In this document: one piece after another, positions 52,053-55,235 of the stretch | Numbering within the stretch: the stretch's first letter is position 1 | Layout: each line of letters begins with the position of its first letter | Source of the DNA: a virus | IMG/VR virus record: IMGVR_UViG_3300044700_000345 | Coordinates: 16,983-80,982 of that record | DNA length: 64,000 bases | Direction: 5' to 3' (one strand) | Translations under genes and position numbers: made by a program | The notes under the pieces: generated by a model | What the model was told of the DNA's origin: nothing | Databases searched by the model: none | Seen by the model: the letters and a program-made list of their open reading frames with translations, nothing else

Positions 52053-52610
52053 ATGCAAAGCACTGGTTACCAACAGATGCCTTCAGTTCCTGTGATGCAA
52101 GTAGAGCAGCTGTTGCCGCAAGCACAGGATAAACCTAAGGCTCCCGCTAAGTCAAAAGCTGGTGGTGATGTTGGTGCATTTATTCAGCAATTGATTGGGC
52201 TGTCTGCTTACGTTAAAGAACTTGAAACTCAATCTCATTTGATCCATTTAAACATAGAGTGTGCAAACTTCCTCAGTATCCATGCATTTTTAAAAGATCA
52301 ATACGAAGCACACCTAGAACAATTTGATACCATCGGTGAGTTTGTTAGGTCAATGGATTATCTTATGCCACTTTGTGGTTGCAAGTTAAAAGATATGGCG
52401 CCTCCCATGCAAGAAGTTACTTCTTACGAATGGAAAGGAATGCTTGGAGTGTACTATAAAAACCTAGAAGATCTTGGCATGCAAGCCAAAAAGTTAGAAG
52501 GCATGGCCCAAAAAGTACATGCTATTGACATCCAAAACTACATGGCTGATCTTGTGGGTCAAGCATTTAAATCCGCTTGGTTTGTTAAATCAATTTTGCG
52601 GCATCCTTAA
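52053..52610 (+). CDS. Dps-like ferritin-fold protein with basic N-terminal tail
   Basis: 185 residues. Residues 1-40 form a Gln/Pro/Lys-rich tail (QAQDKPKAPAKSKAGGD). Residues 40-185 follow Dps: LSAYVKELETQSHLIHLNIE, CANFLSIHAFLKDQYEAHLE, QFDTIGEFVRSM, and the closing DLVGQAFKSAWFVKSIL. His at SIH and Asp/Glu in FDTIGE match the inter-subunit ferroxidase positions of Dps; the usual HWN is HLN. Dps cages bind DNA and oxidise iron, protecting DNA. It has its own promoter and overlaps the endonuclease gene convergently. Confidence 0.72.
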   Translation: MQSTGYQQMPSVPVMQVEQLLPQAQDKPKAPAKSKAGGDVGAFIQQLIGLSAYVKELETQSHLIHLNIECANFLSIHAFLKDQYEAHLEQFDTIGEFVRSMDYLMPLCGCKLKDMAPPMQEVTSYEWKGMLGVYYKNLEDLGMQAKKLEGMAQKVHAIDIQNYMADLVGQAFKSAWFVKSILRHP

Positions 52611-53046
52611 GATAAGTAATTGCAGATTCAAAAAACTTAATATTATCGTTAAGCATTCCTAGCGCAGTGTTGCATTTTTTGCATAACAATCCCCGAACTG
52701 CATTTGTTTTGTGACAATGATCAACAGATAAACTTTGCCCGGATACACATTTTTTTTCACAAATTTTGCACGTTCTATTTTGTTGGTTAAACATATCTAG
52801 ATACATTTCAGGAGTCACCCCATATCTTTTAATCCACCTGGCGTGTTTTTTCTTGTCATCCAATTTGTTCCAGTGTTTTAAACTAGCTTTTCTGTAAATT
52901 TCAGGATTTTTTTTGCGATACTCTGCAGTAATTTGACCAACGCATGTTTTGCATTTAGCTTGCTTGCCATCCTTAACTCTTGATTCAGCGTAAAATTCTG
53001 AAAGATTTTTAAGTTGTTTGCATACAGTGCAGGTTTTCGAAATCAT
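52585..53046 (-). CDS. Endonuclease VII-type HNH (homing) nuclease 1
   Basis: 153 residues. N-terminal zinc pairs (CTVCKQLKN, CKTCVGQ), then YGVTPEMYLDMFNQQNRTC, KICEKK, LSVDHCHKTNAVRGLLCKKC and NTALGMLNDN. This is the recombination endonuclease VII/HNH pattern with conserved DH-H and the N-A-G-L motif. Such free-standing nucleases behave as homing endonucleases in phages. The C-terminus overlaps the Dps-like gene by 26 bases. Confidence 0.88.
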   Translation of the reverse strand: MISKTCTVCKQLKNLSEFYAESRVKDGKQAKCKTCVGQITAEYRKKNPEIYRKASLKHWNKLDDKKKHARWIKRYGVTPEMYLDMFNQQNRTCKICEKKCVSGQSLSVDHCHKTNAVRGLLCKKCNTALGMLNDNIKFFESAITYLKDAAKLI

Positions 53047-53993: not shown

Positions 53994-54203
53994 CTACTTA
54001 TCTTTGTGCCGCTTAGCTGCACGGGCTGCCTTGCCTGCTTTCTTTGCTGTCTCTGTGTTAGGTACAAATTGTTTTCCTTGTTTGCTGCCAGTGCGTTTCT
54101 TTTGGTCGGTCTCTTCTCTTTCCTCTTTGGATAGAGAAGCCCACGCTTTTTCGGGCAGGTAACGTTTTGTGTATCCGTCTTGGATTGCTTTATCACTTGC
54201 CAT
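53994..54203 (-). CDS. DUF5872-like C-terminal part, 69 aa
   Basis: YTKRYLPEKAWASLSKEERE, ETDQKKRTGSKQGKQFVPNT. The order RYLP-KA---L---E, T--KK-G-K-GKQFVP is the second half of DUF5872, known from giant viruses and phages as one protein. Here it is a separate frame whose ATG overlaps the end of the upstream frame by 11 bases. Confidence 0.75.
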   Translation of the reverse strand: MASDKAIQDGYTKRYLPEKAWASLSKEEREETDQKKRTGSKQGKQFVPNTETAKKAGKAARAAKRHKDK

Positions 54204-54405
54204 CTTGATATCTCTTGGCTGCTGATTTAGCTTTAGAACGTTTTTCGTATTCGTCTTTGGTTTGCCACTTTTCTTTGTCCCATTTTTCTAGTGATTTTTG
54301 CCCCTCACCTTTGCCACCTTTATATCCTCCACCGGCTTCTTTGTATTCTTGTGCTACGAGTTGAGCCTTGCGGGCCGAATTAGTTAGCCTCCCGGCTACG
54401 ACCAT
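54193..54405 (-). CDS. DUF5872-like central part, 70 aa
   Basis: From residue 10: SARKAQLVAQEYKEAGGGYK, then GQKSLEKWDKEKWQTKDE. This is the core of DUF5872 (WSARKAQL---YK-AGG-YKG, SL--W--E-W-T). Its own ATG (54405) would add MVVAGRLTN in front, which is not family-like. The expected preceding residues GGKPGEWS are in the frame upstream, 20 nt away; see the element at 54376-54401. Translation may be by bypass, by stop-restart at this ATG, or the gene may be broken. Confidence 0.7.
   Translation of the reverse strand: MVVAGRLTNSARKAQLVAQEYKEAGGGYKGGKGEGQKSLEKWDKEKWQTKDEYEKRSKAKSAAKRYQDGK
54376..54401 (-). promoter_or_regulatory. Translational bypass-like element (candidate)
   Basis: On the minus strand: codon TCG (54401-54399), stop TAG (54398-54396), hairpin TAGCC-GGGA-GGCTA, spacer, then TCG (54378-54376) continuing GCC CGC AAG. 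Skipping 20 nt from TCG to TCG restores the family sequence KPGEWS-ARKAQL. A stop next to the take-off codon, a hairpin, a Shine-Dalgarno-like GGGAGG before the landing codon and matching codons are the features of the T4 gene 60 bypass. Confidence 0.45.
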
Positions 54406-54500
54406 TCTCCTGGTTTACCACCACGGCTTTCACGCATTACACGATTTTTAATGCGTTCCCGCAATTCAGGTTTTGTGTACTTGGTTTTATCTTCAGCCAT
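54396..54500 (-). CDS. DUF5872-like N-terminal part, 34 aa
   Basis: MAEDKTKYTKPELRERIKNR, then SRGGKPGEWS and TAG. This is the N-terminus of the DUF5872 family; it stops in the middle of the conserved string. The ATG overlaps the end of endonuclease VII gene 2 by eight bases. Confidence 0.65.
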   Translation of the reverse strand: MAEDKTKYTKPELRERIKNRVMRESRGGKPGEWS

Positions 54501-55101
54501 AGCTTCCTCGTTGTTTAAGGTAAAGAACTGCACTTGTCAGTACTTCTATATTATCACCGAACAAGCCCAAGGCCCTGTTGCATTCTTTGCAAAGCAAGCC
54601 ACGGAACTCGTTTGTTGCGTGATTGTGGTCCATTGCTAGATCGTGGGTGTCTTTAGGCGGGCTTTTGCAAATAGCGCATTTACCTTCTTGCACTTTAAAC
54701 ACCTGTTCATATTGTTCTTTTGTAATTCCTCTGCGTTCATATTTTTTACAAGAATGGTGCAACTTGTTTTGACCTTGTTTCTTAACCGCAAGGTAATGTT
54801 CTTTATTGTTTTCTACCCATTTGTCCCATTTGATTTTGTTACATGATTTACATGAAGAATGTAAATATAAGTTGCCATCCTGTTTTCTTCTTCTAAAGCA
54901 ATCCCAATTCAAATAGTGAGCACATTTAGAACATTGTTTTTGACCCTCGGCTCCATATAAAAGTTTGAAGCGGCAATTTACCAAGGACCTGCAATCTTTG
55001 CAAACACTGTCTCTTTTTGTATTGCCAGCTGAAGTGTGCCCTTTGTTGTGAAAATTTTCATGTAGTTTTCTGATTCCGCACTCACGGCAGAGTTTTTGCA
55101 T
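54493..55101 (-). CDS. Endonuclease VII-type HNH (homing) nuclease 2
   Basis: 202 residues. Two N-terminal zinc modules (CRECGIRKL, CKDCRSL; CSKCAHYL, CKSCNKI), then RRGITKEQYEQVFKVQEGKC, LAMDHNHATNEFRGLLCKEC and NRALGLFGDN. Same family as 52585. It lies between a truncated and a fuller DUF5872-like frame, with its end overlapping the start of the latter; this is typical for a free-standing homing nuclease placed in or next to its target. Confidence 0.88.
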   Translation of the reverse strand: MQKLCRECGIRKLHENFHNKGHTSAGNTKRDSVCKDCRSLVNCRFKLLYGAEGQKQCSKCAHYLNWDCFRRRKQDGNLYLHSSCKSCNKIKWDKWVENNKEHYLAVKKQGQNKLHHSCKKYERRGITKEQYEQVFKVQEGKCAICKSPPKDTHDLAMDHNHATNEFRGLLCKECNRALGLFGDNIEVLTSAVLYLKQRGSYG

Positions 55102-55136
55102 TGGGTTGTCTGTGCTTTTCTTACAATAGCACAGAA

Positions 55137-55235
55137 TTATTGACCCGGCTTACCCACCTTAGATCCTGCCATCACGCGATCTTTAATGTTCTCGCGTACT
55201 TCAGGCTTAGTGTATTTAGTCTTTTCCTCTGACAT
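55137..55235 (-). pseudogene. Truncated DUF5872-like N-terminus, 32 aa
   Basis: MSEEKTKYTKPEVRENIKDR, then GSKVGKPGQ and TAA. It is a diverged copy of the 34-residue frame at 54500. In the same frame after the stop comes RKAQ (from AGAAAAGCACAG), the next conserved residues of the family, and 9 bases later the nuclease gene begins. A CTGTGC/GCACAG hairpin follows the stop. Start overlaps the upstream stop (TAATG). Confidence 0.7.

Follow-up and report, generated by a model that had tools for sequence, protein, structure and literature searches.

A mobile homing-nuclease cassette and an inferred programmed ribosome bypass in a DUF5872-like phage gene

How is a protein made from a gene whose reading frame is closed by a stop codon and continues, in another frame, exactly 20 nt further on? 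This question is raised by a DUF5872-like gene in an IMG/VR virus record of 80,982 nt, a part of which, 64,000 nt long, was analysed here (the window). An earlier note on this DNA had described a frame ending in GGKPGEWS-TAG and a continuation in a different frame 20 nt on, a TCG codon before the stop and another at the resumption, a TAGCC-GGGA-GGCTA hairpin between them, and an endonuclease VII-type gene lying over the DUF5872 start; from these it had put forward a possible translational bypass beside the nuclease, with stop-restart or a broken gene as alternatives. All of these elements are present, on the minus strand, and the features of the locus are as follows.

54399–54500, minus strand: cassette-borne first part of the DUF5872-like gene (MAEDKTKYTKPELRERIKNRVMRESRGGKPGEWS), 34 codons, ending in GGKPGEWS
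54401–54399, minus strand: take-off codon TCG, the last codon of the cassette-borne first part
54398–54396, minus strand: TAG stop, directly 3' of the take-off TCG
54407–54411, minus strand: AGGAG, Shine-Dalgarno-like, 5 nt ahead of the take-off codon; its role is inferred
54385–54398, minus strand: take-off hairpin UAGCC-GGGA-GGCUA, the 5' arm of which is opened by the UAG stop
54379–54384, minus strand: variable spacer ACTAAT from the hairpin to the landing codon, 6–16 nt in relatives
54376–54378, minus strand: landing codon TCG; TCG or TCT in gap-bearing relatives
54193–54375, minus strand: resident second part of the DUF5872-like gene (ARKAQLVAQEYK...), 60 codons and a stop, in a frame differing from that of the first part
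54403–54405, minus strand: ATG in the landing frame, an alternative restart codon; GTG in L043
54493–55101, minus strand: intact gene of an HNH/endonuclease VII-type homing nuclease of 202 aa with a DHNH motif and paired Cys
55110–55134, minus strand: cassette leader with the inverted repeat CTGTGCT-N11-AGCACAG, just before the nuclease ATG
55140–55235, minus strand: what remains of the resident DUF5872 first part (MSEEKTKYTKPEVRENIKDRVMAGSKVGKPGQ), 32 codons long and closed by a TAA (55139–55137) at the cassette start

The second part of the protein starts with ARKAQLVAQEYKEAGGGYK... at 54375 (coding 54375..54196). When searched against Pfam, the joined, read-through protein matched PF19197 (DUF5872) with E = 6.8e-6 and 27.1 bits. 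Because this score lies below the Pfam cut-off of 27.5 bits, the gene is DUF5872-like and not a scored member of PF19197. The nuclease gene (55101..54493) ends in a TGA stop codon, and its end overlaps the DUF5872 ATG by 8 nt. Its product matched PF02945 (E = 3e-21), and in an alignment of 11 members the DHNH motif and the Cys pairs were invariant. A leader similar to the one preceding the nuclease was found in the other cassettes examined (L089, L087, L011 and L043), and its inverted repeat may serve in the control of nuclease expression. Upstream of the nuclease, the DUF5872 first part occurs a second time in truncated form (55235..55137), a feature that the earlier note does not mention.

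Other features surround the gene. A second EndoVII-type HNH gene is found about 1.4 kb downstream (52585–53046, minus strand; PF02945, E = 3.7e-24). A small lysine-rich ORF (MASDKAIQDGYTKRYLPEKAW..., 53994–54203, minus strand), which was without a match in a Pfam search, overlaps the end of the DUF5872-like gene, and such an ORF also lies 3' of the gene in several relatives (L011, L043 and L009). A stretch of about 1.2 kb of the record is 74% identical, at the DNA level, to the DNA polymerase gene of Synechococcus phage S-EIV1, which makes a cyanophage-like host plausible for the virus without showing it.

Relatives were collected from IMG/VR by scans with the joined protein and with the EndoVII/HNH protein and by a DNA pattern scan, and the results were pooled and made distinct, which gave 42 gap-bearing genes and 65 gap-free homologs. 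The joined-protein scan returned many gap-free homologs (GGKPGQWSARKAQL) together with several genes that carry an insertion at the identical codon. The nuclease-protein scan, which did not select for the gap, nevertheless had a gap downstream in 37/37 close nuclease loci. All 42 insertions are found at one and the same codon of the DUF5872-like gene, and the order TGG-TCG-TAG is kept in every one of them. The take-off codon is TCG in 42/42 gap-bearing genes, as against 9/65 of the gap-free ones, and UAG directly follows the take-off UCG in all 42. A hairpin of the form UAGCC-GNRA-GGCUA, opened by this UAG, is present in 41 of the 42 genes, with the loops GUAA, GUGA, GGGA, GCAA and GAAA, all of the GNRA type. 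The exception (L009/L098) has a differing sequence, UAGCUAUAAUAUUA, also given as TAGCTATAATATTA, and its second part is still intact; in its minimum-energy fold (around 3105 in L009), UAGCU pairs with GGCUA at the landing site. The landing codon, which is followed by ARKAQ, is UCG in 40/42 genes and UCU, also a serine codon, in the other two. With 42 distinct related genes, a chance arrangement of these elements is ruled out.

The length of the bypassed segment, landing codon included, is 23, 24, 27, 28, 29 or 33 nt, so that all three frames are used; the 23-nt class consists of the window and L043. The earlier note had proposed that random gap lengths and unmatched codons among homologs would count against a bypass. 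The lengths do indeed vary, but the take-off codon and the stop are kept throughout, as is the hairpin in all genes but one, and the landing codons match apart from the two UCU cases. The dinucleotide TC is absent from each of the 18 distinct spacers (18/18; shuffle P = 5e-5, with the spacers treated as independent although they are related). Thus, the landing codon is in every case the nearest UCN beyond the hairpin.

The Gly codon three before take-off is GGA or GGG in 42/42 gap-bearing genes compared with 9/65 gap-free genes, and this choice produces an AGGAG- or GGGAG-like motif 5 nt before take-off. Other Gly codons a few positions away vary freely, and synonymous differences between first parts average about 0.55. 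Most members, however, descend from one mobile cassette; the counts among gap-bearing genes are therefore not independent, and shared descent inflates both the TCG and the GGA/GGG contrasts with the gap-free genes. The hairpin stem is nearly invariant among the gap-bearing genes, and base-pair covariation gives no support either way. Upstream of take-off, where T4 gene 60 has a 5' stem-loop, RNAalifold found only a 3-pair helix adjoining the take-off site, with changes on one side only. The nascent-peptide signal of T4 is KKYK, some 30 residues ahead of the P site; in the window a K-x-K-Y-x-K motif lies 24–29 residues before Ser34, but its K-Y-x-K part is common to gap-free homologs. A Shine-Dalgarno-like GAG about 6 nt before the landing codon, as in T4, is lacking: it is absent from the spacer, and the hairpin arm lies at a varying distance. 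The GGGAGG that had been taken for a Shine-Dalgarno motif for landing is in fact the GNRA loop and the start of the 3' hairpin arm, and its distance to the landing codon likewise varies in relatives.

Pairs of empty and occupied sites (L018/L089, which are 97% identical downstream, L010/L087 and L006/L011) define the edges of the cassette. At occupied sites, the resident sequence runs to the Q codon of GGKPGQ. Next come the leader, which contains an inverted repeat, then the nuclease, a further first part of 34 codons, newly brought in, and finally the gap. As judged from the empty sites, the resident sequence then picks up again at the landing codon or just after it. The window has the same layout, the resident relic being at 55235–55140. 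The cassette measures about 765 nt; besides the EndoVII-type HNH gene, which is intact, it carries the gap and a copy of its own of codons 1–34. Between the window and L043, the first part has 3 synonymous and 0 nonsynonymous changes, whereas the corresponding figures for the second part are 25.7 and 17.3; L085 and L087 likewise have near-identical cassettes and divergent C-parts. That the first parts of the window and L043 are nearly identical while their second parts diverge indicates that the cassette moves separately from the second part.

A nuclease was found within 1.5 kb upstream in 84/91 gap-bearing records and in 0/72 gap-free records. Among the seven gap-bearing records without one in this interval, L179 lies at a contig end, and the upstream sequence of L130 and of L152/L167/L187, read by eye, resembles only the tail of the nuclease. 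No trace of a nuclease was detected upstream of the gap in L143 and L166. The gap can therefore exist without an intact nuclease, most simply after nuclease loss. The architecture of the element, its conservation and mobility, and selection on the second part are established as far as DNA comparisons can establish them.

Downstream of the gap the second part is intact despite the use of all three frames, with an intact ORF in 37/37 of the loci selected by their nuclease. Purifying selection acts on it in every length class, from the first codon: in the 28/29/33-nt class, second-part codons 1–6 had a pS of 0.465 and a pN of 0.000, and in the 24/27-nt class pN/pS was 0.065. On the evidence of these sequences, the second part is selected as coding sequence. 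The earlier note had left room for a broken gene. On such a reading, the insertion would disrupt the reading frame, the second part would be a decaying remnant, and the hairpin would be a scar or a DNA-level mark of nuclease resistance. That the first part ends in a stop, that the joined protein falls just short of the Pfam cut-off and that the gap plausibly blocks self-cleavage are all in keeping with such a disruption. A pseudogene is nonetheless disfavoured by the purifying selection, on which grounds we reject it, and neither the intact downstream ORFs, nor the finding of gap and gene without an intact nuclease, nor the restriction of the loops to GNRA is what a decaying remnant would leave; we consider a broken gene very unlikely. 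Removal of the segment from the mRNA by a tiny, intron-like excision of 23–33 nt would tolerate any length and restore the frame, and the matched TCG codons could be its splice borders. Yet an Rfam search of the element gave no match, and the UAG placed in the stem directly after take-off, together with the resemblance to T4, suits translation instead. No system that would splice introns this short is known to us from bacteria or phages, and excision at the RNA level seems to us scarcely credible.

It is also conceivable that the first part is released at the UAG as a 34-aa peptide and that this ribosome then starts anew in the landing frame, the gene working as two chains. A restart codon upstream of the stop is indeed available in the landing frame of the 23-nt class (ATG at 54405 in the window, GTG in L043); most members of the 24- and 27-nt classes have an ATT or ATA in this frame, 1–3 codons before ARKAQ; and AGG or GAGG occurs within the hairpin arms. 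Moreover, in L073, L074 and L075 (near 3140) the DUF5872 gene is split at a different place, after GGGYK, and the second ORF has its own ATG; this is another natural break of the gene, with an ordinary restart. However, outside the 23-nt class no ATG, GTG or TTG was found in the landing frame before ARKAQ among the 42 distinct gap-bearing genes, and ordinary restart therefore fails as a general mechanism. The 28-, 29- and 33-nt classes have no usual start codon between the last in-frame stop and ARKAQ, and a TGA stands directly before the landing TCG throughout the 28-nt class and in part of the 29-nt class. Nor would it be sufficient to initiate further in, at the internal ATG of codon 6, because the ARKAQ codons of these classes are themselves constrained (pN 0). 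Restart also leaves the invariance of the take-off TCG, the landing at TCG or TCT and the TC-free spacers unexplained. Restart at ATG 54405, which the earlier note had put forward as an alternative, thus survives for the 23-nt class only; it is not excluded for the window taken alone, nor is restart at ATT or ATA for the 24- and 27-nt classes taken alone. As an account of the whole set of genes, restart is improbable.

The best explanation, and one we hold to be highly probable, is that a mobile homing cassette has brought a programmed ribosome bypass into the DUF5872-like gene. The link between bypass and nuclease suggested earlier is in this sense the best supported reading, but the bypass itself is inferred: there is no protein or RNA evidence for it, be it a peptide, ribosome profiling or a reporter, and the fused protein is unproven. 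The cassette inserts at the conserved GGKPG-(Q/E)WS-ARKAQ site of the gene. The nuclease is inferred to cut empty alleles near GKPG-QWS-ARK, and repair would then copy the cassette in. The target's own first part is left as a truncated relic, with the cassette copy taking its place and abutting the resident second part via the gap, so that the gene is rebuilt. The gap would hide the cut site and presumably spares its own locus from the nuclease, although this role in resistance is likewise an inference. During translation, the ribosome would reach Ser34 (UCG); its A site would then hold the UAG, and the UAGCC-GNRA-GGCUA hairpin would lie immediately in front of it. The peptidyl-tRNA-Ser would leave the UCG, the mRNA would slide by 23–33 nt, and the tRNA would re-pair at the first UCN past the hairpin, whereupon decoding would continue at ARKAQ to yield one protein. 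What the hairpin and the AGGAG-like motif contribute to these steps is inferred.

We further think it likely that the genes form a large, still-moving family of short bypass elements in freshwater phages. Such elements would spread as a cassette of nuclease, rebuilt first part and bypass, function with any gap length and in all three frames, land on the nearest UCN beyond a GNRA-capped hairpin, make use of a Shine-Dalgarno-like motif before take-off, and stay on as a fixed component of the gene once the nuclease has been lost. An AlphaFold model of a gap-free homolog does not discriminate, because its confidence is low (pLDDT 66) and the junction falls between a loop and a helix.

We also looked for comparable elements elsewhere. 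Among 139 examined occurrences of the same hairpin in other genes, there was no convincing case of a known gene continuing at a matched codon. An unrelated context, TCG-TAGCC-G(T/C)AA-GGCTAAGGGGAGACGGTTAC, recurs in L123, L146, L155 and L186, where the same hairpin ends another reading frame; there, too, a convincing continuation at a matched codon was lacking. A pattern scan of bacterial genomes gave two matches, both unrelated. A less biased scan, in which stop, hairpin and landing were left free and only GGAGAATGGTC was fixed, detected no new gap type, the sole non-standard case being the L009 contig already known. Downstream of more distant EndoVII genes, no comparable gap was seen by eye. 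In L223 (2501–2980 and downstream), a DUF5872-type second part with its own ATG lies 3' of a distant EndoVII gene (41% identity), which suggests a separate nuclease invasion of a DUF5872 gene at another site.

In the sources cited here, T4 gene 60 is the established case of bypass in a phage. In 2010 the process was stated to appear unique to that gene (PMC3014915), while counterparts, perhaps over shorter distances, have long been presumed (PMC5009743). Our literature search found no report of a DUF5872-like bypass family; subscription papers and preprints were mostly not covered, so this absence is no proof. If the proposed bypass is real, this would be, to our knowledge, the first broad bypass family in phages, and bypass elements would be recurrent companions of homing nucleases instead of a one-off. 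Its dozens of natural variants, which differ in gap length, loop, spacer and landing codon, would serve as a mutational series supplied by nature. The locus is also a warning that gene finders split such genes in two.

Several known cases share part of this organization. The Byp elements of Magnusiomyces capitatus mitochondria (PMC5009743) are likewise short inserts that would inactivate genes if they were not bypassed. They are, however, mitochondrial, with relaxed decoding and often imperfectly matched codons, whereas here a single phage gene is concerned and the codons are matched almost strictly. Another reported phage bypass candidate has a much shorter gap than T4, and a Shine-Dalgarno motif has been proposed just as here on the 5' side of the gap, but it involves a UUA codon, no homing nuclease is mentioned, and it is a candidate only. 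In mycobacteriophage Corndog, the tape-measure gene follows an HNH gene, and its unexplained expression has bypass as one option (PMC4351075). This is similarly an HNH insertion at a coding gene, but no family with hairpin and matched codons has been shown, and an ACG start is given as an alternative.

The closest parallel is T4 gene 60, in which a stem-loop in the A site, a UAG, matched codons and an adjoining homing nuclease are combined (PMC5009743, PMC3014915, PMC11194080). Its gap, taken from AF158101, reads GGA-UAGCC-UUCG-GGCUA...GGA and spans 50 nt, compared with 23–33 nt in the phage family described here. The matched codons are Gly GGA in T4 and Ser UCG in the family, and the loop is UUCG in the former and GNRA in the latter. 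T4 has a GAG motif before landing; the family has none, but carries an AGGAG-like motif before take-off. Because the effect of the T4 landing GAG has been termed modest (PMC5009743), this motif is accessory to T4-type bypass and not defining. In T4, mobA is annotated as a pseudogene (AF158101), whereas the EndoVII-type nuclease of the family is intact. T4 presents one gene, a split topoisomerase gene, whereas the family extends over many phages and all three frames, and its gene is restored by the copy of the first part that the cassette brings. The UAGCC/GGCUA stem, opened by the UAG stop, is nevertheless identical in the two, which raises the question of common ancestry or convergence. Common ancestry is only a possibility, because, once a hairpin starting with UAG is required, two further identical base pairs could have arisen by convergence.
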